From the NCBI GenBank assembly GCA_903869725.1, contig CAIQAD010000047.1, forward strand, positions 1-53,144: a stretch of 53,144 nt of DNA, in the 5' to 3' direction. Below are positions 20,062-53,111 of the stretch, in pieces. A program made the translations under genes and the position numbers. Position 1 is the stretch's first letter; every line of letters begins with the position of its first letter. The notes beneath the pieces are model-generated. The model did not search any database and was not told where the DNA came from. It saw nothing but the letters and a program-made list of their open reading frames with translations. This DNA is from an uncultured Alphaproteobacteria bacterium. GTDB lineage: Bacteria; Pseudomonadota; Alphaproteobacteria; Pelagibacterales; Pelagibacteraceae.

Positions 20062-21261
20062 TTAGAAGTTTACTCCTGTCCATACTAGGAAATCTTGTTC
20101 CCCGCCATTGCCATGAAGTCCACCAACGTTACTAGTTGTTCTGTATTGTCCTTTAACAGCAACAGGTCCTAAACTGTAACCAGCTGAAAGGATTTTGATT
20201 ACTTCATCTTTTTTGTCAACAGCATCTCCTGCAGTTCCGCCATTGCCATCACTACGCCCAGCTTTTGCGTAAGTGCCTGCAATACTGAAATCTTTGGTTA
20301 CTGCATAAGATAAACCGGCTGATGCAGCAGTAACTTGTCCACCTGAAGTGGCAGTCGTTGCTGGCAAACCATCTTTTGCCCACTCAGCTGCAACTGTAAA
20401 TGCAGTTCCAGGAATAGCGTAAGTAGCATTGACTTTTTCACCGAATATTTTACCAACGTAAGTAGTTACGTTTAGTTTTTGAGAGTTGTTATACCAAGCT
20501 GAAGCTTGAAGTCCTGGCACACCTAAATTACCCATGAAACCAAATTCATAAGCAGATCCATAAGTGCTGTTGTAATCAGCAGCTACAGAAGTGTTACCAT
20601 TATCGTTACCAAAATATGCTTTATTAGAACCCAAAGCATCTCTGTTTGGAACGTATAAAGCTGAAAACGACCCAAATCCTGGAACGTTTTGTATTATACC
20701 TACTCCTGCAGACTCATAAGGAGTGTTTATTGTAGTAGGATAAATACCAGCAACTCCACTGCCAGGGTAAGGTCTAACATATGATGAAGGACCTCCCATT
20801 AAAGTTGGGTTATTATCTGGGGATTGAATGTGATCGACAGAAACTGTTAAAGTTGTGTTTCCAATCATTACATCAATGAAATTATTTTCAGAGAACATTC
20901 CAGATACTTGTCCAGCAGCTGCGCCTCCTGTTGTGCTAACGGCGTTATTTTCTGAGCCATCAACTTCAATAGAGAAACCTGCAGCGTATCCCCAACCATT
21001 GTTAAGTTTTCCGCGATTGTTAATATTAATTTGAACTTCTTTTCCAAATCCATGCAAACCAGCTAAACCAGCTGTTGAGGCAGTGTTTCCACCATTAACT
21101 TTTTGGTCTCTGAAAGAAAAGTACATATTACCGCTTACAGTTGTTCCATCTTTGCCACCATTATCGTAATAAGTAGTAGCTTGTTGTGCTAATGCAGAAC
21201 CTGCACTGACAGCAACCAATGAACCAACTAAAGCTGTAGTAAGTTTTAGTTTATTTTTCAT
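20062..21261 (-). CDS. Outer-membrane porin
   Basis: The 399-residue protein begins with a signal peptide (LVGSLVAVSAGSALA, cut before QQAT near residue 26). It consists of alternating polar/hydrophobic beta strands rich in Gly, Ala, Asn and Tyr, and ends in TGVNF, the C-terminal Phe expected of a BAM substrate. Its composition is clearly less AT-driven than its neighbours, as expected of a highly expressed protein. It is a general diffusion-type barrel by pattern; the solute is unknown. It has the only strong terminator and one of the largest upstream regions in the window. Confidence 0.85.
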   Translation of the reverse strand: MKNKLKLTTALVGSLVAVSAGSALAQQATTYYDNGGKDGTTVSGNMYFSFRDQKVNGGNTASTAGLAGLHGFGKEVQININNRGKLNNGWGYAAGFSIEVDGSENNAVSTTGGAAAGQVSGMFSENNFIDVMIGNTTLTVSVDHIQSPDNNPTLMGGPSSYVRPYPGSGVAGIYPTTINTPYESAGVGIIQNVPGFGSFSALYVPNRDALGSNKAYFGNDNGNTSVAADYNSTYGSAYEFGFMGNLGVPGLQASAWYNNSQKLNVTTYVGKIFGEKVNATYAIPGTAFTVAAEWAKDGLPATTATSGGQVTAASAGLSYAVTKDFSIAGTYAKAGRSDGNGGTAGDAVDKKDEVIKILSAGYSLGPVAVKGQYRTTSNVGGLHGNGGEQDFLVWTGVNF

Positions 21262-25053: not shown

Positions 25054-26052
25054 ATGCTTTTAAGATCTCAAGATATTTATCTTAAAAAAAATGATTTCTT
25101 TAAAGGAAAGATAATTCTTTTATATGGAGAAAATGAGGATTTAAGTAAGTATTATAGTTTAATTCTTTCAGAAAAGTTTAAAGAGAAAAATAAAATAATT
25201 AAAACTTTTTTTGAAGAAGATATATTAAAAAACCCAGATCACATTATCGCAGAATATAATAATGGAAGCTTGTTTGGGGACAAAATTATTTCTATTATTA
25301 AAAATTGTTCAGATAAAATTTTAGATGTCCTTAGCCAAATAAGTATATCTATTAATGAAGAAGTAATAATATTAAATTCTGGCTTATTGCAAAAAACTTC
25401 TAAACTTAGGAAATTTGCAGAGAGTAGTCCAAATACAATATGCATTCCTTGCTACCAAGAAAATCTCATAGATATAAAAAGATTTTTACTTAATGAGTTA
25501 CAACAAAAAAAAGTTGGCCTATCTAGCGAACAAATTGACCATATTATTCATTATTCTTCATTAAGACGTTCAAAGATTACTGAAATAATCGATAAATTAA
25601 GTCTTATCAACAAGGATCAAAAGATCGATAAAAAAATTCTTGAGGAAATTTGTAGCGAACAAGATCTTCAGAAAAATGAAGAGATTATTGATATTTTGCT
25701 CTCAAAAAACAAAAAAAACATCAATGAATTCATTTCCAATATGTCTAATTACGATAAAAATTATATCGAAATAATAATTTTTTTAAGAAACCTAATTATA
25801 AAAATATTAAACATTTATAGCCATGATTACAAAATGTCTTTGGATGAAAAAATTGAAAAATACAAGCCTGCTATTTTTTGGAAAGAAAAAGATCGGATAA
25901 AAAGTATTTTAAAAATTTGGAATATAAAAGATCTACAAAAATTATTTAATAATTTAAATTGTCTAGAAAAAGAAATTAAGCTTTCAAATATCAACCAAGA
26001 TATTCAATTTTACTATTTTTTAACAGAAAATTTATCTAAAAGAAGTTTTTAA
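25054..26052 (+). CDS. holA: DNA polymerase III subunit delta
   Basis: The 332-residue clamp-loader subunit opens the beta sliding clamp. It begins with the family pattern IYLKKNDFFKGKIILLYGENEDLSKYYS and keeps the three-domain delta layout: an AAA+-like N-terminal part, SSLRRSKITEIIDKLSLI in the middle and a helical collar domain. It follows lptE (5-bp gap), the typical gene order, and its 3' end overlaps the convergent parB by 17 bp. Confidence 0.93.
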   Translation: MLLRSQDIYLKKNDFFKGKIILLYGENEDLSKYYSLILSEKFKEKNKIIKTFFEEDILKNPDHIIAEYNNGSLFGDKIISIIKNCSDKILDVLSQISISINEEVIILNSGLLQKTSKLRKFAESSPNTICIPCYQENLIDIKRFLLNELQQKKVGLSSEQIDHIIHYSSLRRSKITEIIDKLSLINKDQKIDKKILEEICSEQDLQKNEEIIDILLSKNKKNINEFISNMSNYDKNYIEIIIFLRNLIIKILNIYSHDYKMSLDEKIEKYKPAIFWKEKDRIKSILKIWNIKDLQKLFNNLNCLEKEIKLSNINQDIQFYYFLTENLSKRSF

Positions 26053-26896
26053 GTGTTTTTATAATTTTGGTTAATTGATCAAGATTTTTATAAACAAATT
26101 TTATATCACCTGTATTATTTTTTTTATTATTAATATTTACTTTAATACCCATTAATAATTCAAGATCAGACTCTAATGATCTAATATTGCTATCCTTATT
26201 AATTGTTTGACTATTTTTTTGTTTACCAAACACTTGCTCTTTTTTAACAAGAAACTCGGCTTGTCTTACGGATAAATTTTTATTAACAATAATTTTAGCT
26301 AATTTTATATTATCTGGAATATTAATTAGACATCTTGCATGACCAGCTGTTAATAAGCCATTAAAAATCATATCTTTAATCTCTTGAGGCAAACCTACTA
26401 ACCTTAAAGTATTTGTTATATGACTGCGACTTTTGCCTAAAATCTGAGCTAATGTTTCTTGAGAATAATTAAATTTATTTATAAGATTTTCATAACCTAG
26501 AGCTTCTTCAATTGCATTTAAATCTGATCTTTGAATATTTTCAAGTAGTGCAAATTCTAAAGATTTTTTATCATCTATATCTAAAATAACTACAGGTACT
26601 TCGTGAATTTTTGCAATTTGTGCAGCACGCCATCTTCTTTCTCCTGCTACAATTTCAAACTTATCATTTTTTTTTCTAACTAGAATTGGTTGAATAATTC
26701 CCTGTTGCTTGATTGAATCTGATAATTCATTTAAAAGTTTAATATCAAAACTTTTTCTAGGTTGATCAGGATTTGGATAAAGTAAATGAATAGGTACTTT
26801 TTCTGAAACGTTAGAATTTTGAATTTGCGCCTGCACATTCTCACCCATTAATGCGGACAAACCTTTGCCTAATCCTTTAAATTTATTTGTAATCAT
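26036..26896 (-). CDS. parB: Chromosome-partitioning protein ParB
   Basis: The 286-residue centromere-binding protein and CTPase has the N-terminal GLGKGLSALMG segment that contacts ParA, the ParB/Srx domain with NPDQPRKSF and GERRWRAAQIA, the helix-turn-helix region QETLAQILGKSRSHITNTLRL that reads parS, and a C-terminal dimerisation region. Length is typical. It directly abuts the parA stop (0-bp gap). A matching parS site lies 1.4 kb away inside rsmG. Confidence 0.98.
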   Translation of the reverse strand: MITNKFKGLGKGLSALMGENVQAQIQNSNVSEKVPIHLLYPNPDQPRKSFDIKLLNELSDSIKQQGIIQPILVRKKNDKFEIVAGERRWRAAQIAKIHEVPVVILDIDDKKSLEFALLENIQRSDLNAIEEALGYENLINKFNYSQETLAQILGKSRSHITNTLRLVGLPQEIKDMIFNGLLTAGHARCLINIPDNIKLAKIIVNKNLSVRQAEFLVKKEQVFGKQKNSQTINKDSNIRSLESDLELLMGIKVNINNKKNNTGDIKFVYKNLDQLTKIIKTLKNFF

Positions 26897-27700
26897 TTAT
26901 GCTACCTTCTTTTCTTTACTTGTTTCTCTTGTAATAAACTCTTCTACAAACTCATTATAAGCTAATGCTCCAGCGCAGTATTTGTCATATAAAATTACCG
27001 GCAACCCAAAGGACGGGGCCTCAGAAATCCTTACATTTCGCGGTATATTTGAGTTGTAAACCTTCTGTCCGAAAAAATTTCTAGCTTCTTTTTCAACTTC
27101 TCCACATAACTTATTTCTTTTATCAAACATAGTTAACAATATTCCGTGTATGTCTAAATCTTTATTTAAATTTATTTTGATTCTTTCAATAGTTTTCACA
27201 AGCTGACTTAATCCTTCTAAAGCAAAAAATTCTGCCTGTAAGGGAACTACCAATGTATTTGAGGCAACAAGAGACATAATGGTTAACAAACTTAATGATG
27301 GCGGGCAATCAATAATGATGTAAGAAAAATTTTCTTTTTCTATTTCTTGAAAAGAATCTCCAATCAAATTTTTTAATAAAAAAGCTTTTTGTGAATCGTT
27401 TGCAAGTTCTGTTTCGAGACCAGAAAGTTCCGGGTTAGCTGTAATTATTTTTAAGTTATTTATTTTTGTTTTTTTTATTGACTCAGAAAAAGAATTTTTT
27501 CCAATTAGTAAATCATAAATAGATTTATCCCTTTGACTTGGGTCAATGCCTACTCCTGTTGAAGCATTACCTTGGGGATCAAGATCTATCAAAAGAACAT
27601 TTAACCAATTTTTAATTGCAAGACCTGCTGCAAGATTAATAGCTGTTGTTGTTTTTCCAACGCCACCCTTTTGATTGATAACGGAAATTATCCTAGGCAT
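26897..27700 (-). CDS. parA: Chromosome-partitioning ATPase ParA
   Basis: The 267-residue deviant Walker A ATPase begins RIISVINQKGGVGKTTTAINLA with the KGGVGKTT loop. It also shows LLIDLDPQGNASTGVG, the Walker B-like YIIIDCPPSLSLLT and FDKRNKLCGEV. ParA moves ParB-parS complexes along the nucleoid. The start overlaps the rsmG stop by 8 bp in the classic rsmG-parA-parB order. Confidence 0.99.
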   Translation of the reverse strand: MPRIISVINQKGGVGKTTTAINLAAGLAIKNWLNVLLIDLDPQGNASTGVGIDPSQRDKSIYDLLIGKNSFSESIKKTKINNLKIITANPELSGLETELANDSQKAFLLKNLIGDSFQEIEKENFSYIIIDCPPSLSLLTIMSLVASNTLVVPLQAEFFALEGLSQLVKTIERIKINLNKDLDIHGILLTMFDKRNKLCGEVEKEARNFFGQKVYNSNIPRNVRISEAPSFGLPVILYDKYCAGALAYNEFVEEFITRETSKEKKVA

Positions 27701-28337
27701 TTACAACCTTAGATTGTATAATTTTAAGTTCTTTTATTTTTAAAATTTTTCCTTCGTTTGATGTTATACTTTTGAATTTTTCACATTTAAATTCGTACTT
27801 AAGTAGAGCTTCGTCAATTTCTTTTTGATAACTTTTTCCTTTTAGCAATATAAACTGACTCACATTTTTTATGTTTTTTTTCATTTCATCAAAAGTATTA
27901 ATCAAAGATTTAAATGCTCTTGAAGTTACAGATGAATTTTTTGGCACTTTAATATCACTAACTAAATTATTGAGTATAATTATTTTTATATTAAGCTTAT
28001 TAGCTAATTCAAATAGAAAATCACACTTTTTTTTGCTCTTATCAACAAGGTAAACATTTATTTTTTGATTATGATCATCAGAAATAAGCTTAATAATCAT
28101 TCCTGGAAATCCTGCTCCTGATCCAAAATCAAATAAATGATCAGTATTTTTAAAATGCCCATATAACTGAGCAGAATCAGTAAAATGCCTTATAAATAAG
28201 TCTTTTTCGGTTGATTTACCTATTAAATTGAATTTTTTATTAGATTCTAATATAAAATCTTTGTAAATTGCTATTTTTTCAATAGTTTCACGTGAAACAT
28301 TGAACTTATTTTTAAATTCTTCTAATGTAGCTTCCAT
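27693..28337 (-). CDS. rsmG: 16S rRNA (guanine527-N7)-methyltransferase RsmG (GidB)
   Basis: The 214-residue SAM-dependent enzyme methylates G527 of 16S rRNA. The motif I loop is DFGSGAGFPGMIIKL, preceded by FIRHFTDSAQL, with SRAFKS and LLKGKSY later. The start overlaps the mnmG stop by one base (TAATG). The codons for residues N13-T18 carry the parS palindrome described separately. Confidence 0.97.
   Translation of the reverse strand: MEATLEEFKNKFNVSRETIEKIAIYKDFILESNKKFNLIGKSTEKDLFIRHFTDSAQLYGHFKNTDHLFDFGSGAGFPGMIIKLISDDHNQKINVYLVDKSKKKCDFLFELANKLNIKIIILNNLVSDIKVPKNSSVTSRAFKSLINTFDEMKKNIKNVSQFILLKGKSYQKEIDEALLKYEFKCEKFKSITSNEGKILKIKELKIIQSKVVNA
28284..28299. promoter_or_regulatory. parS: parS centromere site (ParB binding)
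   Basis: The sequence matches the bacterial parS consensus TGTTTCACGTGAAACA at 15 of 16 positions (first base A instead of T). The inner 14 bp (28285-28298) are a perfect palindrome. It lies within the start of rsmG, 1.4 kb upstream of the parB gene that encodes its binding partner. I found no other near-exact copy by eye. Confidence 0.93.
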
Positions 28338-30199
28338 TAAGAGGCTTTTTTATAGCCATTCTTGCAATAAATCATCAAAATATTAATTGATGCTGGGGTG
28401 ACTCCGTCGATTCTTAAGGCTTGTCCGAATGTTTCTGGGTTTATTTCTGTAAGTTTTCTTTTAATCTCATTTGATAACCCTGATATATTTTTATAATTTA
28501 TATTTTTAGGAATTTTTAAATTTTCGTCTTTTTTGAAAATATCAACATCTTCTTTTTGCTTTAAAATATAGCCACTATAATGAGATTCAATCTTAACCAC
28601 ATCCTCAATTTCTTTTGTAATTTTTGGAATATCTTTAAAAATTGATCTAAGTTTACTAAAATCAACATCTTTAAACTTTAAAATTTCAAGCAACGAACGT
28701 TTTTTTCCATCTTGTGATATTTTAATTCCCTTTTTCCTTAAAAAACTTGGCGAAACTTTAGTTTTTTGTAAAAATAATTTTATGTTACTTAAACTATTGA
28801 TTTTATTGATAAATTTAGACTTTCTTTCTTTTGATATGAAGTTATTTTTAATTGCAACTGGTGTCAATCTTGTATCAGCATTATCAGCTCGCAATGTTAA
28901 ACGATACTCTGCTCTCGATGTAAACATTCTGTAAGGTTCACTAACACCTTTTGTAATTAAATCATCCACCATCACTCCAATGTAAGATTCTGTTCTATCA
29001 AATTTAATAGGGTCTAAATTTTTAACTGTTAGAGCTGCATTTATGCCTGCGACTAAACCTTGGGCAGCTGCCTCTTCATAACCAGTCGTGCCATTGATCT
29101 GACCAGCAAGATACAAATTTTTAATTTTTTTTGTCTTTAATGTAAAATCTAATTCCGTTGGAAATACATAATCATATTCTATTGCATAACCAGGTCTGAT
29201 CATAGAAACGTTCTCTAAACCATTGATATTAAACAATATTTCAAGCTGTATTTCTTCTGGCAGCGAAGTAGAAATCCCATTTGGATATACAATGTTAGTT
29301 GATAAACTCTCAGGTTCAAGGAATATTTGATGTCTTTCTTTGTCTTTAAATTTAACAACTTTATCTTCAATAGAGGGACAATATCTTGGCCCAACGCTTT
29401 TTATTGACCCAGAATATATAGCACTTCGATTTAAATTTTTTTCTATAATTTTATGAACCTTATAATTTGTATATGTGATGCCACATTCAATTTGTTTAGC
29501 ATTAACTTTTTTTGTGAGATAAGAAAAAAAATATGGATCTGGATCTGCTCCTTGCATTTCGATATTTTTATAATTTATAGTACGACCATCTAATCTTGGT
29601 GGGGTACCTGTTTTTAATCTACCAAGTTTAAAATTTAATTTTTTTAGTTGTTCACTCAAACCAAAAGTAGGAGCCTCTCCAACTCGTCCTCCTGAAATTT
29701 TCTGATCTCCAATATGCATCAAACCATTTAGAAAAGTTCCAGTTGTTAAAATAAATTTTTTTGCAGAAAAAGATTTTCCTGATTTAGTTTCAACAGAAAT
29801 TATTAGATCTTTATTAAATTCAAATTTAACGACCGGATCGAAAAAAAGACTTAAATTACAGTAGTTTATTAATGTTTTTTGCATATATTTCTTATACAGT
29901 TCACGATCAGACTGTGTACGCGGTCCTCTTACGGCATGTCCTCTACTACTATTTAAAAGTCGAAATTGTATTCCTGACAAATCAGCAACTGTTCCCATAA
30001 TGCCATCTAAAGCATCAATCTCGCGAACTAAATGACCTTTTCCTAATCCGCCAATGGCTGGATTGCATGACATTTCACCTATTGTCTCTAATGAATTGGT
30101 TAGAAGAGCAGTGTCTACTCCTGCCCTAGCAGAAGCTGCTGCTGCTTCACAACCAGCATGACCCCCTCCAATAACTATCACTTCAAACTTATTTTTCAT
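28337..30199 (-). CDS. mnmG: tRNA uridine-5-carboxymethylaminomethyl modification enzyme MnmG (GidA)
   Basis: The 620-residue FAD enzyme works with MnmE to modify U34 of tRNAs. It starts with the dinucleotide-binding loop [17 protein letters not shown], then has [22 protein letters not shown] near residue 45, the [16 protein letters not shown] and [14 protein letters not shown] signatures, and [21 protein letters not shown] near 370. The length is normal. It is separated from mnmE by 50 bp and is first in the mnmG-rsmG-parA-parB series. Confidence 0.99.
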
Positions 30200-30249
30200 T
30201 TTACGGCTATATATATAGCTTTACAAATAAAAAGATAAGTGAATAAAGT

Positions 30250-31575
30250 TTATTTACCTATGCAAAAATCTCTGAAAATATTATCTAGAACTTCTTCAAC
30301 ATTAACACTTCCGACTATTTCGCCTAAACTTCTGGCGGCAAGCCTTAGATCTTCAGCCGCAATATCAATTTCGCTGATCTTTGATTTTTTCAAACAGTTT
30401 GAAATTAATAAGCTAGCATTTATAAGACTTTTTTGATGTCTTAAACGAGAAGTTACACTGTCTTTTTCAATTTTAAAATTGCTAATAATTTTTCTACTTA
30501 TTAACTTCAAAAGTTTTTCAATACCTAAATTTTTTTTTACTGAAATTTTAATTTCATTAAGTTTTAATAAATTTTTAAATTTCTGTTTAGAAGATAAATC
30601 AATTTTATTTAAAAGTATAATTGATCTTTGATCAAATAAATTTAAAAAATTGTTCGGAATAGGCTTAGAGTAATCAAAAATAAAAATTTTTAAATCTGAA
30701 TTTTTTAAAAGTTTATTTGTAAGTTCAATGCCTTTTTTTTCAATTATATTTTCTGCTTTTCTTATTCCAGCAGTATCTAAAAATTTAACAAGATATCCAT
30801 TTAACATAATGCTTGCTTCGATAACATCGCGCGTAGTCCCGGGTATTTTAGAAACAATAGAAGCTTCTCTTTGAATTAATCTATTCATTAAAGATGATTT
30901 TCCAGAATTAGGAGGCCCAACTATTGCAATTGTAAAACCATCCCTAATTTTCTCAGTATTTTCACCCTTTTTTATAATTTCATCTATTTTATGTTTTAAT
31001 TTCAATAACTTAGACCTGTTTTGAATGAAGATATTATCCTGAACATCATCTTCAGAAAAATCTATAACAGCCTCATAGTTTGACAAAATTTTGATAATTT
31101 CCGATCTCAAATTTTCATAAAGTCTTGTTGTGTCATCGCTCATCATCTTTAGAGCATGAACTCTTTGAATTTCCGTCTCGGAATTTATCAGATCTATTAA
31201 TGCCTCTGCCTGAAGAAGATTTATTTTTTTATTAAGTAAGGCAATTTGACTAAACTCTCCTGGTTTAGCTAATCTACAATTTTTAAATTTGGATAAATTT
31301 TTTAAAAAACAATTAATAACAGCATTACTGCCGTGCAAATGAAACTCTATAACATCATCACCAGTGTAGCTATTAGGTCCTGGAAAAAATATATAAATAC
31401 CTTTGTCGATAAGACAATTAGAAAGATCATAAAAATTTGTAAAGTTGGCTATCCTTGGTCGTAGTTTATTTTTTTTAGTTATTTTTTTTGCTATATTTAG
31501 CGAACCTGTTCCTGATAATCTAACAACTGCTAAACCGGAAATTCCTGGAGATGTTGCTAAAGCAAAAATTGGCAT
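30250..31575 (-). CDS. mnmE: tRNA modification GTPase MnmE (TrmE)
   Basis: The GTPase is the partner of MnmG in U34 modification. I start it at the ATG at 31575 (MPIFALATSPGISGLAVVRL, 441 residues) because the family begins there; the frame is open for 15 more codons. The G domain has GPPNSGKSSLMNRL, the DTAGIR switch and NKID, and the C-terminus is FCIGK, the conserved CxGK tail whose Cys is catalytically implicated. It starts 13 bp from the end of the hydroxylase gene upstream. Confidence 0.98.
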   Translation of the reverse strand: MPIFALATSPGISGLAVVRLSGTGSLNIAKKITKKNKLRPRIANFTNFYDLSNCLIDKGIYIFFPGPNSYTGDDVIEFHLHGSNAVINCFLKNLSKFKNCRLAKPGEFSQIALLNKKINLLQAEALIDLINSETEIQRVHALKMMSDDTTRLYENLRSEIIKILSNYEAVIDFSEDDVQDNIFIQNRSKLLKLKHKIDEIIKKGENTEKIRDGFTIAIVGPPNSGKSSLMNRLIQREASIVSKIPGTTRDVIEASIMLNGYLVKFLDTAGIRKAENIIEKKGIELTNKLLKNSDLKIFIFDYSKPIPNNFLNLFDQRSIILLNKIDLSSKQKFKNLLKLNEIKISVKKNLGIEKLLKLISRKIISNFKIEKDSVTSRLRHQKSLINASLLISNCLKKSKISEIDIAAEDLRLAARSLGEIVGSVNVEEVLDNIFRDFCIGK

Positions 31576-36005: not shown

Positions 36006-38087
36006 TTAAATATAAATATCATCTGGAGTCTGTCCTAATTTATGGCGTTCATAAATTTTTTTATAAGATTTTTCTAAATTTTTTGTAAACAGCGGAGTAT
36101 TAAATAAAGGTTTATTTAAAAGATTTTTTTCTAACTTAATTTTCAAATCTCTTAATTTATCAAAATTAACACCTAGATTTATAGCTAAATTCTTATAGTC
36201 TTCTAACGTAGTAGTGACTAACTCTGGAAGATCTATTGCATACAATAAACTAGCTGCAACTCTACTATGATAACATTTACCCATTAAAGTAATAATTGGA
36301 ACTCCAGCCCATAAAGATTCACAACCAGTGCTATGTGCGTTGTAAGGAAATGTATCTAGAGTTAAATCTGCCAATTTATGTCTAGCTAAATGAATTTCAT
36401 GATTTTCAACTGATTTTGCAAAAATTATCCTATCTAGTGATAATTTTTTATTTTCACATTTTTTCAGAATATTTGTTTTAGCAAAATCATTGGTTTGACC
36501 CAACCACAAAACACTATTTTTTACATTTTCTAAAATTTCTAACCAAACGTCAAAAACATTTTCGTTAATTTTATAAATATTATTGAAAGAACAAAATATA
36601 AATACATTTTCAGGTAATTGAAAATCGGATTTTTTTATTAATTTTTTTGAGATTAATTTTTTACGATCATTCACCATAAAACTATTTGGCAAATAAATAA
36701 TTTTTTCTACATATTTATCTTTAAGATCTAAAGGAATTAAATTTTTGTCTGCTATTAAATAATCCATAAAATTTGCGCCCATTGTCCCTGCATAACCTAA
36801 ATAGTTTATTTGGATGGGAGCAATTTTACGTTGAAATATCAATGTTTTTGAGCAATCCGTATAACCATTTAGATCAACAGCAACATCAATATTTAAATCT
36901 CTTACTAATGCTATTATTTCTAAATATGTTTTGTTTTCAGCGTTAATAAAATGATCACAAGAATTTATTATTCTCTCTTTTAGTAAAGAATTTGGTTTAT
37001 TTTCTAAAGAAAATAAAAATATTTCAAAACTATTTCTATCATGCAATTCAAACAACTCTACAATTTGTCTAGAAACAGGATGATCGCCAAAATCGCTTGA
37101 AAAATAGGCAATTTTTATTTTTGCATTTATTGGTTTTTTGTCAAAAAAGTAAGTATCTTTTTCAGAATTTTTTAAAAATTTTTTTTGTAAAAAGTTTTTT
37201 GTTATTTTTAATTGTAAATCAATGTCATCGTTAACTAAAAGAAAATTCCAAGGATGAATAGTTAATTTATTTTCTTTTATATCAATTAAAGATTGATTTA
37301 TAATTGTAATTTTTTTTTCAAAATCAACGATTGTTGCTACAAGTTGGAGAATATTTCCTAGTAAAAGTTCAAAATCAGGATTAAGTGAATATGCTTTCTC
37401 TAGGTCTTGAAGAGCTAATAAAAAATCTTTTTTTTTTTTAAAGAACAATCCTCTTTCAAAATAGTACTCTGATTCGTTAGAACTGTGTGCAATAGCAAAA
37501 TTAAAATCTATAAGCGCAGAGTCATGTTTATTTAATTTACTATTTATTTTCGCTCTATTTAAATAGGCTGGGGCAAAATCATTTTTCAGAAAAATTGCTT
37601 TATTTAAATAATATAAAGACTCTTCGTGCTTATTAAGTTGCAAAAGACAAAAGCCAATATTGTTGTAAGACATAAAATCATCATCTTTAATCTTAATTGC
37701 AATCTTAAAATTTTTTATAGCTTCTTCAAATTTGAGCAGTGAAGCAAGTGCTCCTCCTAAGTTAACGAAAGATTCAAAATTATTTCCGTCAAGATCCGCT
37801 GCTATTTGAAAATTTTTTACAGCTTCATTAAAATTCTCTAATTGTTTTAATAATAAGCCTAGAAGAGTAAAAGCTTTTGACGTGTTTGAATTTATATTAA
37901 TTGCTTTTTTAATTAAATCTATTCCTAAATTATAATTTTTTTGATCATAAGCAATCCAACTAAGAAAATAATAGGCATCAAAATTTTCTTTGTCGACCGA
38001 AAGTAACTTTTTATACTTTATTTTGGCCTCTTCTAAATGACCATCTTTTTGAAGATTTATTGCTTCTATGAGTATATCTTTAGACAA
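36006..38087 (-). CDS. TPR protein with O-GlcNAc-transferase-like (GT41/SPINDLY) domain
   Basis: The 693-residue protein has about six to seven TPR repeats (residues 5-260) followed by a GT41 catalytic region: FSSDFGDHPVSRQIVELF with the HP motif, DVAVDLNGYT, QINYLGYAGTMGANFMDYLI, FNNIYKINENVFDVW, NSVLWLG and DTFPYNAHSTGCESLWAGVP. These follow the order seen in eukaryotic OGT and bacterial SPINDLY-type proteins, which glycosylate Ser/Thr of proteins. The acceptor is unknown. The frame starts at a TTG (38087): an in-frame stop lies just upstream and the next Met is about 140 codons in. Confidence 0.88.
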   Translation of the reverse strand: MSKDILIEAINLQKDGHLEEAKIKYKKLLSVDKENFDAYYFLSWIAYDQKNYNLGIDLIKKAININSNTSKAFTLLGLLLKQLENFNEAVKNFQIAADLDGNNFESFVNLGGALASLLKFEEAIKNFKIAIKIKDDDFMSYNNIGFCLLQLNKHEESLYYLNKAIFLKNDFAPAYLNRAKINSKLNKHDSALIDFNFAIAHSSNESEYYFERGLFFKKKKDFLLALQDLEKAYSLNPDFELLLGNILQLVATIVDFEKKITIINQSLIDIKENKLTIHPWNFLLVNDDIDLQLKITKNFLQKKFLKNSEKDTYFFDKKPINAKIKIAYFSSDFGDHPVSRQIVELFELHDRNSFEIFLFSLENKPNSLLKERIINSCDHFINAENKTYLEIIALVRDLNIDVAVDLNGYTDCSKTLIFQRKIAPIQINYLGYAGTMGANFMDYLIADKNLIPLDLKDKYVEKIIYLPNSFMVNDRKKLISKKLIKKSDFQLPENVFIFCSFNNIYKINENVFDVWLEILENVKNSVLWLGQTNDFAKTNILKKCENKKLSLDRIIFAKSVENHEIHLARHKLADLTLDTFPYNAHSTGCESLWAGVPIITLMGKCYHSRVAASLLYAIDLPELVTTTLEDYKNLAINLGVNFDKLRDLKIKLEKNLLNKPLFNTPLFTKNLEKSYKKIYERHKLGQTPDDIYI

Positions 38088-45187: not shown

Positions 45188-45764
45188 TTAATATTAAAAA
45201 ATCAATTAATGCTTTGACTGGCATACCCATAACCGCGTATTCATCTCCCTCTATTTTGTGAAATAATTGGCGCCCTGTGCCCTCTATTTGATAAACTCCA
45301 TATCTTTGGATTGTGTCTAAACCTAATTTATTTAAATAATCATCAAAAAAATTTTCTGTGTAATGACGCATAGTTAAATCTAATCTTTCAGTATGAATCC
45401 AATTATTTGTTCCATTTTTATATAAACAAATGGAACTAAATAAAGAGTGCTTCCGATTATTTAAAACTAATAAAAGTTTTTTGGCATCTTTTAGATCTTT
45501 TGGTTTGTCATAAATTTTTCCTTCACAATCTAAAACTTGATCCGCGCCGAGCACTAATTCATCTGGATTTTGCGTGCTGATTTTTTTAGCTTTTAATTCA
45601 GCAAGCGCTCTAGATACGTGGAAAGAATCAGCATCTTCTTTAATTAAAGAGTCTTTAATAAGCTGCTCGTCAATATTTGCCGGCAAAACTTTTACAACAA
45701 AGCCAAAATCTTGTAAGATTTTTTTTCTTATTCCGCTTGCGGACGCCAATGTAATATTTGTCAT
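45177..45764 (-). CDS. maf: Maf-family nucleotide pyrophosphatase
   Basis: The 195-residue protein starts ITLASASGIRKKILQ, a Maf signature (LASxSxxR), with VLGADQVLDCEGKIYDKP (catalytic Asp) and a C-terminal YQIEGTGRQLFHKIEGDEYAVMG. Maf enzymes hydrolyse modified pyrimidine triphosphates and also affect septation. It overlaps ppsR by 4 bp and keeps the origin-flanking order. Confidence 0.94.
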   Translation of the reverse strand: MTNITLASASGIRKKILQDFGFVVKVLPANIDEQLIKDSLIKEDADSFHVSRALAELKAKKISTQNPDELVLGADQVLDCEGKIYDKPKDLKDAKKLLLVLNNRKHSLFSSICLYKNGTNNWIHTERLDLTMRHYTENFFDDYLNKLGLDTIQRYGVYQIEGTGRQLFHKIEGDEYAVMGMPVKALIDFLILNEK

Positions 45765-46579
45765 TTAGTGTTTTTTATTTCGTGTATTTTTATTATTGAT
45801 GCAGCAGTTTCTTCAACGGATTTTCTTGTTACATCGATGACTGGAATGTTATATTTTTTGAATAAAATTTTACTTTTTTCAATTTCTTCTTTTATTTTTT
45901 CAATATCAACATAACTAGTGTGTTTTTCTTCTGATAGAGTGTTAAGTCTAGTTTTCCTAATATCCTGCAATCTACTAGCATCTGCTATCAACCCAACTAC
46001 TGTTTTTGTTTTTTCATTTAATACTTCCTCGGGCACGCTTCTGTCGGAAATTAGGGGGATATTGGCTGACTTAAAACCCTTATTTGCTAGATATATTGTT
46101 GTTGGAGTTTTGCTTGTTCTGCTTATTCCTAAAACGATAATGTCGGACTCTAAAATTGTCTCTGGTTTTTGACCATCATCATGTTCTATGCTAAATTGCA
46201 TCGCAGAAATTCTTTTGTAGTACTCCTTGTTGAGAGCGTGCTGTCCGCTTGGTATATGATTTGCTTTTTTTCCAAGTACTTTTTCAAATTCTGGCAACAA
46301 GGTATCTAAAATACCAAAGCACACATATTTATTATGACTCGCTTCTTTTTTTATTTCTTGAATAATTGTAATGTCAACCAAGGTATATATAATTATTGGG
46401 TTCTCGCTTTTTTTGCACTTTTCTATTAATGTTTTTACTTGTGCGCTTGTCCGAAAAAAGGAGAAATGATGAATTGTATTATTAAATTGATTAAATTGAG
46501 CTTTTATAGCGAGAAATATCCTGTCTAGAGTTTCTCCAGTAGAGTCCGAGACTAAAAAAATATTATAAAATTTGTTCAT
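45761..46579 (-). CDS. ppsR: Pyruvate, phosphate dikinase / PEP synthase regulatory kinase-phosphorylase (DUF299)
   Basis: The 272-residue bifunctional regulator phosphorylates and dephosphorylates PEP synthase or PPDK. It opens FLVSDSTGETLDRIFLAIKAQF, and the P-loop-like motif VLGISRTSKTPTTIYLANKG is at about residue 150. It is the homologue of the gene annotated RP001 in Rickettsia and CC_0001 in Caulobacter, the one that borders the replication origin. Its ATG is next to a 275-bp gene-free T-rich stretch. Confidence 0.95.
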   Translation of the reverse strand: MNKFYNIFLVSDSTGETLDRIFLAIKAQFNQFNNTIHHFSFFRTSAQVKTLIEKCKKSENPIIIYTLVDITIIQEIKKEASHNKYVCFGILDTLLPEFEKVLGKKANHIPSGQHALNKEYYKRISAMQFSIEHDDGQKPETILESDIIVLGISRTSKTPTTIYLANKGFKSANIPLISDRSVPEEVLNEKTKTVVGLIADASRLQDIRKTRLNTLSEEKHTSYVDIEKIKEEIEKSKILFKKYNIPVIDVTRKSVEETAASIIKIHEIKNTK

Positions 46580-46854
46580 ATGGCTGTTGATAAGCCTTTA
46601 TTAGTTTGTTTTGTACATGAAAATTACCAAGTTTTTTATGAAATAACACTTTGTTCTGATTTTTTTCTTTTTTTATTAAGATTGTTTATGTTTTTTTTGT
46701 TTTGTTTATTTTGTTTATTGTTTAATAATTTCTGTGTTTTTTGGGTTTTTAACTTAATTTATTAACAATTTGTTGTGAGTAAATAATGTATTGAAAATTA
46801 CCCTCTGTTTCCACAGAACCATATAACACTACTATATATAACTATTATTTATTA
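46580..46854. other. oriC: Candidate chromosomal replication origin (oriC)
   Basis: This 275-bp gap between ppsR and hemE has no credible gene. It carries four 9-mers near the DnaA-box consensus TTWTNCACA: TGTTGATAA at 46585-46593 (reverse), TTATTAACA at 46759-46767, TGTGAGTAA at 46774-46782 (reverse) and GTTTCCACA at 46807-46815, each one base off. Between them lies a long T-rich tract (about 46650-46760) with four TTGTTTA copies (46682, 46702, 46711, 46718), suitable as an unwinding element. Gene order on both sides matches Caulobacter Cori. Near-boxes also occur elsewhere by chance, so the synteny carries most of the weight. Confidence 0.65.
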
Positions 46855-47865
46855 ATGAGTAATAAAATTCTTTCTTGTTTAAAAAAAAAGGAAAAAAATT
46901 TACCTATCTGGTTTATGAGACAGGCTGGGAGGTACTTGCCGGAATATCAAAGTTTAAGAAAAAAAAATAAAAATTTCATAAATTTTTGTAAAAATCCAGA
47001 AGATATTCAAAAAGCAACTTTACAACCTATAAAAAGATTTGATGTAGACGCAGCAATAATATTTTCTGACATATTACTAATATTAGATGCTACAGGACAA
47101 AAAATAAGTTTTGAAGAAAAAAAAGGACCAATTTTAAATAATTACAATAAAAAAATATTTTACCAACAAAGTGATAAAGATTTTAAAAAAAAACTAAAAA
47201 AAACATACGAAAGCATAAAGAAAACAAGAAAAAAACTAAACAAAGAAAAAGCATTAATTGGATTTGCAGGAGCGCCTTGGACGTTATTAGTTTACATGAT
47301 AAATAAACAGTCACCAAAAAAAAAATTAGAAATAGAGAAAATAAAAAATAAAGAAAAAGAAAAAATAATTAAAAGACTAGAACACCTTATCTATCTGCAT
47401 TGTGAAGAACAAATTAAAAGTGGCGCAGACATAATCCAGCTTTTTGATAGCTGGGCAGGAAAAATAAAAGAGAAAGAAATTAATAAATTTTGTATAATAC
47501 CAAACGCGAATATTATAAAAAAAATAAAAAAAAAATACCCACACATACCTGTTATATGTTTTCCAAAAGGCATTAATAAAAAAATAAATCTATTTATAAA
47601 AAAAGCAAAACCACACGCGATTAATATTGATCCAAATATGAAGCTAAAAAAAATTAATATAAAAGCAAACGTTGTATTTCAAGGAGGACTAGACCCAAAA
47701 TTTTTATTAAAGGGAGAAAAACAAATGTTTAAAAAAACAAAAGAATACTTAGATTTTTTTAAGGAAACGCCTTATATTTTTAATTTAGGTCACGGAATAT
47801 TGCCGCAAACAAAACCAAAAACTGTTAAAAGATTAGTCGAATTTGTAAGATCTTATAAACCATGA
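46855..47865 (+). CDS. hemE: Uroporphyrinogen decarboxylase
   Basis: The 336-residue enzyme converts uroporphyrinogen III to coproporphyrinogen III. It shows PIWFMRQAGRYLPEY (HemE signature), AIIFSDILLILDATGQ, IGFAGAPWTLLVYMI and FNLGHGILPQTKP near the end. The gene is among the most Lys-rich in the window. It is the first gene on the right of the candidate origin, as in Caulobacter, and overlaps hemH by 4 bp. Confidence 0.98.
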   Translation: MSNKILSCLKKKEKNLPIWFMRQAGRYLPEYQSLRKKNKNFINFCKNPEDIQKATLQPIKRFDVDAAIIFSDILLILDATGQKISFEEKKGPILNNYNKKIFYQQSDKDFKKKLKKTYESIKKTRKKLNKEKALIGFAGAPWTLLVYMINKQSPKKKLEIEKIKNKEKEKIIKRLEHLIYLHCEEQIKSGADIIQLFDSWAGKIKEKEINKFCIIPNANIIKKIKKKYPHIPVICFPKGINKKINLFIKKAKPHAINIDPNMKLKKINIKANVVFQGGLDPKFLLKGEKQMFKKTKEYLDFFKETPYIFNLGHGILPQTKPKTVKRLVEFVRSYKP

Positions 47866-51464: not shown

Positions 51465-53111
51465 TTATAGCTTAGCTAAAATTGTTTTTATTTTTTCATC
51501 AAAATTTAAAGCGAATTTGTTTGCATCAAACAAAGGAGAACCAATAGCTTTTTCATGCAACTCACTTCTTGTTTTGTTAAGTTTCTCAATGTTAGAACTA
51601 AATTCAAATGCTTTCTTAATGTATTCGTCCCTGGATAAGGTTATCCATTCTTTCATGTCTAAATTGTTATTTATAGAGGAGCCACAATTGTGTAAGAAAG
51701 TATCTCCTTTTAGAGTTAAAAGAGGCACACCCATATAAGCAGACTCAAAACTAGTAGTGCCACCGCCATATGGAAAAGTATCTAAACAAATGTCAATTTC
51801 ATTATATAATTCTAATAATTGCTTTCTAGGTAAAGGATCATGAATAATAATTCTTTCTTCGCTTATATTTAGGTCAGTAAAATTTTTAATAAAATTTTTT
51901 TTAAATTCTGCAATTCCAAAATTTTTGCCTGCAAAAATTATTTTAGAATTTGGGACGATTGATAAAATTTCACTAAATACCCTAATAACTTCTTGTGTTA
52001 TTTTTATAGATATATTTAAATTCCCAAAAGTTACAAATTTATTTTTGATGGCGGGAGTAATTTTATTTATTTGTAAATCTTTATATTCAGGCTTACTAAA
52101 GCATGCCCAAACATCTGGCATTTGTAATATTTTTTCAGCAAATTTTTCTTGTGAATCTAAAGGTGTTACAATTGGATCGCCAATGATGTAGTCAATTTCT
52201 GGTATGCCAGTTGAATTAAGGCATGCAGCCCAAGTCATTTGTATCGGAGCAACCCTATTAATGTAGATTGGAAGACGGTTGTTATCAGTATGTCCATTTA
52301 CATCAATTAAAATATGAATTCCATCTTCTTTTATTAGATTAATTAATTCATTGTCAGATTTTGTTCTTACATTTCTCCATTCATGAAAAAGACTTTTAAT
52401 CCTAATAAAATTTTCTTTTTCAGCATAATTATTAAAATAAGAATAAATTTTATAACGCGTTTTAATTTTTTCTAAGAAATTATTTAAAAAATATCCGACA
52501 GGATGATCATCTTGAATATCTGAGCCTAGAAAGCCTAATTTAATTTCAGCATCCTTATGATATTTAGTTATTTTTAGATAACTCTTGTTTATTGGAGCTA
52601 AACTTTTTCTAAATTCATCAGAATATTGCTTATAAATTTTATCAGAATAATAAGGATGAAAATTATAGGAAAATAATAAAAAAGAAAAATATTTCGGATT
52701 TTTAGTTAATCTTACTGCCTCTTTAATGTTTTCAAAGCTTTTCACATATTCATTAAAATTTATATAAGTTCTAGATAAATTGAAATAAGCCTCTGGTCTA
52801 TTAGGTTCAAATATTTTGATCTCCTCTAAAATTTTTATAACCTCTAATAATTTTTTTTGTTTTGTTAATATTCCTGTTTTATTCAGAAGAAGATCGTAAG
52901 ATTTTGGATACAATCGAAGCCCTTTGTTTATGTAAAAATCAGCTTCTTCTAGTTTAAGGTTTTGTTGTAGCGAAGAACTTAAATTAACAATTACCGCGAG
53001 ATTATCCGGAAGAATTTGATAGGCTTTTTTTAATTTTATTTCTGCATTAAAATAATCTTGTTTTTTAATATCATTAATTGCAGCTAAAAATATTTCTTCA
53101 GGCCTATTCAT
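51465..53111 (-). CDS. TPR protein with GT41/SPINDLY-like glycosyltransferase domain (second copy)
   Basis: The 548-residue protein has about three or four TPR-like repeats (residues 1-150) followed by a GT41-type catalytic region: KLGFLGSDIQDDHPVGYFLN (HP motif), ILIDVNGHTDNN, PIQMTWAACLNSTGIPEIDYIIGD, TFGNLNISIKIT, SKIIFAGKNFG and DICLDTFPYGGGTTSFESAYMGVP. It is clearly related to but shorter and more diverged than the protein at 36006-38087. It probably transfers a sugar to a protein Ser/Thr or another acceptor; target unknown. It starts 33 bp from the window edge. Confidence 0.85.
   Translation of the reverse strand: MNRPEEIFLAAINDIKKQDYFNAEIKLKKAYQILPDNLAVIVNLSSSLQQNLKLEEADFYINKGLRLYPKSYDLLLNKTGILTKQKKLLEVIKILEEIKIFEPNRPEAYFNLSRTYINFNEYVKSFENIKEAVRLTKNPKYFSFLLFSYNFHPYYSDKIYKQYSDEFRKSLAPINKSYLKITKYHKDAEIKLGFLGSDIQDDHPVGYFLNNFLEKIKTRYKIYSYFNNYAEKENFIRIKSLFHEWRNVRTKSDNELINLIKEDGIHILIDVNGHTDNNRLPIYINRVAPIQMTWAACLNSTGIPEIDYIIGDPIVTPLDSQEKFAEKILQMPDVWACFSKPEYKDLQINKITPAIKNKFVTFGNLNISIKITQEVIRVFSEILSIVPNSKIIFAGKNFGIAEFKKNFIKNFTDLNISEERIIIHDPLPRKQLLELYNEIDICLDTFPYGGGTTSFESAYMGVPLLTLKGDTFLHNCGSSINNNLDMKEWITLSRDEYIKKAFEFSSNIEKLNKTRSELHEKAIGSPLFDANKFALNFDEKIKTILAKL

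Follow-up and report, generated by a model that had tools for sequence, protein, structure and literature searches.

The ppsR-hemE Locus in a Freshwater SAR11 Genome

The window, i.e., the whole stretch of 53,144 nucleotides analyzed here, is an entire contig (C47) of a draft genome of 1.08 Mb in 55 contigs, and its host is a freshwater SAR11 bacterium (LD12), Candidatus Fonsibacter. An earlier note on this DNA had proposed that a 275-bp gap without genes, lying between ppsR and hemE, is the chromosomal replication origin. The gap itself was borne out, and protein family matches identified the divergent genes on either side of it:

45761-46579, minus strand: ppsR (COG1806/DUF299), left boundary gene; PF03618, E value 5.8e-85
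46580-46854, no strand assigned: candidate oriC gap, 275 bp, gene-free, with the divergent genes ppsR and hemE on either side
46855-47865, plus strand: hemE, right boundary gene; PF01208, E value 9.3e-91, and TIGR01464, over its cut-off

To the left of ppsR and on the same strand, maf, aroE, coaE and dnaQ follow in this order, and dnaA, which the note had reported as missing from the window, was found on a separate contig (G000:C52). The interval 46580-46854 occupies the intergenic position between hemE and COG1806 (ppsR) that is characteristic of Cori-type origins. Elsewhere on the same contig, two genes (36006-38087 and 51465-53111) encode TPR proteins that carry glycosyl transferase family 41 (O-GlcNAc-transferase-like) domains.

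A SAR11 Form of the DnaA Box

Four DnaA-box-like 9-mers lie in the gap, three of which are listed here and the fourth with the putative unwinding module below:

46585-46593, minus strand: DnaA box in its SAR11 form, TTATCAACA, at the ppsR edge; one mismatch to TTATCCACA, exact match to TTATNAACA
46759-46767, plus strand: DnaA box in its SAR11 form, TTATTAACA; exact match to TTATNAACA, two mismatches to TTATCCACA
46774-46782, minus strand: DnaA-box-like site TTACTCACA, presumably weak; two mismatches to TTATCCACA

All four had been described as one base away from the DnaA box. This description holds for 46585-46593 (TTATCAACA), which differs from TTATCCACA at a single base and whose position at the ppsR edge is occupied by a TGTNNATAA-like site in most SAR11 gaps, whereas the sites at 46759, 46774 and 46807 are each two bases off. 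Judged against TTATCCACA, the window gap contains one site with at most one mismatch (0.09 expected, P = 0.09) and four with at most two (1.3 expected, P = 0.03), a count that taken alone is barely above chance. Neither an exact copy of TTATCCACA nor a match to the strict TTATNCACA consensus is present in the window gap, and scans with both strict patterns gave no signal at the gap in either of two complete relatives, G003 and G020. Judged against TTATNAACA, the boxes at 46585 and 46759 are both exact, compared with 0.11 exact copies expected in the window gap (P = 0.004). The related pattern TTATNMACA reaches its genome-wide density peak in the gap of both G003 and G020, with four copies per spacer compared with at most two in any other spacer of G003 and at most one in G020. 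The gap thereby shows the DnaA-box cluster of a Cori-type origin, through this peak in the complete relatives and the two exact copies of TTATNAACA in the window.

Sequences from one genus are not independent of each other, and statistics were computed on representative subsets. A de novo search, in which all gapped 9-mers were compared with dinucleotide shuffles in 21 dissimilar SAR11 gaps, placed TTATNAACA at the top of the ranking (found in 21/21 gaps, 3.2 expected), and seven gaps that had not been viewed when the pattern was formed contained 13 copies versus 0.93 expected. As judged from their sequences, SAR11 origins are rich in a presumptive variant of the DnaA box whose sixth base is A (TTATNAACA). 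Since domain IV of the DnaA protein of the window genome keeps the GRDHTT motif, as in the E. coli DnaA chain 1j1v, this protein is expected to read TTATNAACA-type boxes.

A Putative Unwinding Module beside hemE

The fourth box lies close to hemE and is followed by a short spacer and a run of trinucleotides:

46807-46815, plus strand: unwinding-side DnaA box GTTTCCACA, within the inverted repeat 46804-46817; place, orientation and spacing as for the box preceding the trios in other SAR11 gaps; two mismatches to TTATCCACA
46816-46819, plus strand: 4-bp spacer GAAC; a spacer of 4 bp is found in nearly all SAR11 gaps scored
46820-46834, plus strand: DnaA-trio-like run CAT ATA ACA CTA CTA, the proposed start of melting, as suggested by the SAR11 module score and by conservation of the hemE end

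The inverted repeat with 5-bp arms that had been reported around this box (TCTGT-TTCC-ACAGA) is present. Nearly every SAR11 gap has a DnaA-type box some 47-55 bp ahead of hemE, followed by a spacer of 4 bp and then by consecutive CTA, ATA or TTA triplets, an example being TTATTAACA-tagg-ATA-ATA-CTA-ATA-CTA. The module score averaged 9.02 over 22 dissimilar SAR11 gaps versus 7.40 +/- 0.17 in shuffles (the maximum of 100 shuffles being 7.82), and elsewhere in the scored gaps, in their middle and at their left ends, module scores stayed at the level of the shuffles. The module of the window, GTTTCCACA-gaac-CAT-ATA-ACA-CTA-CTA at 46807-46834, begins about 48 bp ahead of hemE, is recognizable and degenerate (3 of 5), and is weaker than in the relatives. 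The last 35 alignment columns of the gap are 90% identical to congeners versus 51-60% elsewhere in the gap. The box/spacer/trio module is the best-conserved part of the gap and likely its melting site.

A different element had been singled out in the earlier note, namely a T-rich tract:

46660-46726, plus strand: T-rich tract in which TTGTTTA occurs four times; AT-rich and not conserved

The four copies do exist (starting at 46682, 46702, 46711 and 46718), but the tract is peculiar to the window genome. As a conserved melting element it was rejected, as it is missing from the other Fonsibacter gaps.

Conservation of the Gap and Loss of Its Boundary Genes

The length of the gap varies only from 264 to 294 bp in the 50 SAR11 genomes that have both flanking genes. 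In genus g9 (G020 and G032), hemE is gone from the locus and rho is the next gene, with the box-spacer-trio module retained; the gap before rho measures 353 bp in G020. In the sister family f2, ppsR was not found and Maf is the left neighbor, adjoining a gap of 271-281 bp in 19 genomes. The gap is thus retained independently of its boundary genes hemE and ppsR.

The only hemE match in genus g9 lies elsewhere (C1:718094-719056 in G020, C1:412375-413337 in G032) and is distant, with 33-34% identity; in G020 this match, at 718 kb, is near the replication terminus. This suggests that the origin-side hemE was replaced by another copy in this genus.

Strand Composition and the parS Site

Because the raw cumulative skew mixes replication effects with those of the coding strand, we used a coding-strand correction, in which the mean coding-strand bias was removed and G-C at third positions was added up for each gene. 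The window genome itself is in 55 contigs, and the skew was computed in the two complete relatives: G003, a one-contig Fonsibacter genome of 1,160,202 bp and thus from the genus of the window, and G020, from another genus. In G003, the corrected GC3 minimum falls on the gene centered at 1,090,713, which is ppsR (1,090,306-1,091,118, next to the gap at 1,090,027-1,090,305), and a two-breakpoint fit locates the switch directly beyond ppsR (bootstrap 95% range, 1,071.6-1,112.8 kb). In G020, the corrected minimum is centered at 139,531, beside ppsR (140,519-141,328) at a distance of about 1 kb, with a wide bootstrap range of 98-173 kb. Of the two genomes, G020 carries more weight, since its locus lacks hemE. 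Both genomes therefore show the change of strand composition that marks a bacterial oriC, with the corrected GC3 change point within about 1 kb of ppsR. The skew at fourfold-degenerate sites gave no clear signal, the sites being too sparse. Within the window, a strong outlier in third-position GC skew is the gene at 20062-21261, whose 399-aa product has a signal-peptide-like start, looks porin-like by eye and is matched by no Pfam or NCBIfam model.

The partition genes and a centromere-like site are located on the ppsR side of the gap:

26036-27700, minus strand: parB and parA (ParB_N/HTH_ParB/ParB_C; AAA_31/ParA)
28284-28299, no strand assigned: parS-like centromere site AGTTTCACGTGAAACA; one mismatch to parS, 18.3 kb from the gap

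The copy of GTTTCACGTGAAAC at this site is the sole one in the window genome. A single perfect parS is present in both complete genomes, 16.7 kb (G003) or 19.5 kb (G020) from the gap, and the next best site has three mismatches; in other genomes with parS on the same contig as the gap, its distance is 17-20 kb when it lies on the ppsR side and 8-10 kb when it lies on the hemE side. A lone parS at 8-20 kb from the gap is independent support for an origin at this place. In the window, the parS-like site lies at the gidB/gidA junction of a parB-parA-gidB-gidA-mnmE cluster (26036-31575). As the window has its parS-like site on the ppsR side and other SAR11 genera have parS on the hemE side, the two arrangements are likely to be related by an inversion around the origin.

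Alternative Readings of the Gap

Divergent genes require promoters, and the gap could be a mere promoter region of ppsR and hemE whose conservation serves transcription. The -10 box of hemE would then be the TATAAT-like part of the trio run; indeed, TATAAT occurs 30-40 bp before hemE in some gaps. We consider this very unlikely, as the gap and its box/trio module survive the loss of hemE, the 271-281-bp gap survives the loss of ppsR, and the upkeep of length and layout under both losses is not what one would expect of a plain promoter region. Promoter function also predicts neither the skew switch, nor the genome-wide maximum of boxes, nor a neighboring parS. A promoter may well overlap the origin.

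The origin might instead be sought elsewhere on the chromosome. Origins beside dnaA are common in bacteria and the closed record of G003 begins at dnaA, so that the ppsR-hemE gap could be an ancestral remnant; we give this almost no weight, given that dnaA (at 382 bp on the G003 circle, about 71 kb from the gap) lies outside the G003 bootstrap range, is similarly distant in G020 (about 71-72 kb in the two genomes) and has no box cluster nearby that equals the one in the gap. Across genera, dnaA is found at a distance of 63-72 kb, to one side of the gap or the other, as expected, since inversions around an origin at the gap would yield such an arrangement. An origin located 15-30 kb away on the hemE/rho side would agree with the raw skew and with gene-order symmetry: in both complete genomes, the raw GC-skew and gene-strand minima are displaced by 18-24 kb to this side (raw GC minima at 1,072,618 in G003 and 159,876 in G020, strand-walk minima at 1,066,789 and 165,061), and the gene orders of G003 and G020 are symmetric about an axis at about 1,070/170 kb, 20-30 kb from the gap, whose position is resolved only to tens of kb. 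However, once the coding strand is corrected for, the minimum of both genomes shifts to the ppsR gap, no box cluster lies in the hemE/rho-side stretch, and the gene-order correlation is almost flat across the range (0.868 versus 0.887). Many genes of this stretch point toward the gap, which is likely to have caused the shift of the raw minima, and an origin there is exceedingly improbable.

We are therefore highly confident that the chromosome of this Candidatus Fonsibacter is replicated from a single origin (oriC) at 46580-46854, positionally homologous to Caulobacter Cori. The place of the gap, its conservation, the skew switch, the enrichment of boxes and the nearness of parS were all established by computation. 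The earlier note had itself named two observations that would count against an origin here, a skew minimum elsewhere and a lack of box conservation among relatives; on examination, the corrected GC3 minimum was found at ppsR in G003 and about 1 kb from it in G020, and DnaA-type boxes in the gap proved to be conserved across SAR11, so that its reading of the locus as oriC is supported. What stands is the location, whereas the boxes then thought relevant have to give way to TTATNAACA and the box/trio module by hemE, and the T-rich tract does not hold.

Comparison with Known Origins and a Proposed Model

In Caulobacter crescentus, Cori occupies the gap between hemE and CC_0001/COG1806 (PMC1914354), in agreement with the earlier note, and the SAR11 gap resembles it in boundary genes, position and the presence of DnaA boxes in an intergenic origin. 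In contrast, the SAR11 box consensus is TTATNAACA rather than TTATNCACA. The origin of Rickettsia prowazekii is likewise reported to have hemE and COG1806 as its boundary genes (PMC1914354). Strict CtrA sites (TTAA-N7-TTAA) are absent from the window gap, and 19/52 SAR11 gaps have one. A ctrA orthologue was not found in Pelagibacter (PMC2877005), and a search of three SAR11 genomes with a CtrA model gave no match above cut-off; this model is a Rhodobacter one that only 1/14 control genomes passed, and the absence of CtrA therefore rests mainly on PMC2877005. GcrA is present, and GANTC does not occur in the window gap. As origins free of CtrA sites have been accepted in some Wolbachia and Ehrlichia (PMC1914354), the lack of such sites marks a variant and leaves membership standing. 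The IHF site WATCAN5WTR is absent from the window gap and present in 13/52 gaps versus 18 expected by shuffling, i.e., no IHF site is conserved, and the SAR11 gap is classed as Cori-type by its position and DnaA boxes and not by an IHF site.

The basal unwinding system, known from Bacillus subtilis and many bacteria, comprises a DnaA box with at most two mismatches, a spacer of at most 16 bp and at least three NAN trios (PMC8287927); the DnaA-trios 3'-GAT-5' appear as 5'-CTA-3' on the opposite strand, after the box (PMC8287927, PMC8235120). SAR11 gaps resemble it in their box, short spacer and downstream 5'-CTA/ATA-3' repeats and on average conform to this description, with clear CTA runs in three sister-family relatives. 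The window differs in its degenerate run (3 of 5, and CTA CTA), in which three trios do not occur in a row, and in the two mismatches of its box.

On this basis, we propose that DnaA would bind the TTATNAACA-type boxes across the gap (46585, 46759 and weaker sites), and that an ATP-DnaA filament would start at the box 46807-46815 and cross the 4-bp spacer onto one strand of the trinucleotide run 46820-46834, thereby melting the DNA at the hemE side of the gap. The helicase would be loaded after melting and two forks would depart, one via ppsR, maf and aroE toward parS and parAB, the other via hemE, hemH and rho. CtrA would take no part in the control of the origin. For SAR11 as a whole, we lean toward the view that the origin is a cassette of fixed length (about 275 bp), CtrA-free, with a preferred DnaA box shifted to TTATNAACA in the presence of a standard DnaA recognition motif and DnaA-trio opening on the hemE side, and that this cassette has outlasted the loss of either boundary gene (hemE in one genus, ppsR in the sister family).

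SAR11 ranks with the most abundant groups of bacteria in water. A description of SAR11 origin architecture was not found in the searchable literature, although DoriC-type databases may hold predictions. A firm origin position anchors coverage-based estimates of SAR11 growth rates, one of which infers the terminus from coverage (PMC9589681), and cautions against assuming that the dnaA end of closed records is the origin. The gap also offers a small, defined origin for DnaA-binding tests or for plasmids replicating in SAR11. In the sister family f2, the gaps of L298 (G039) and L303 (G045) contain four or five perfect CTA trios, and these two origins are better suited than the window itself to experiments on the unwinding module.
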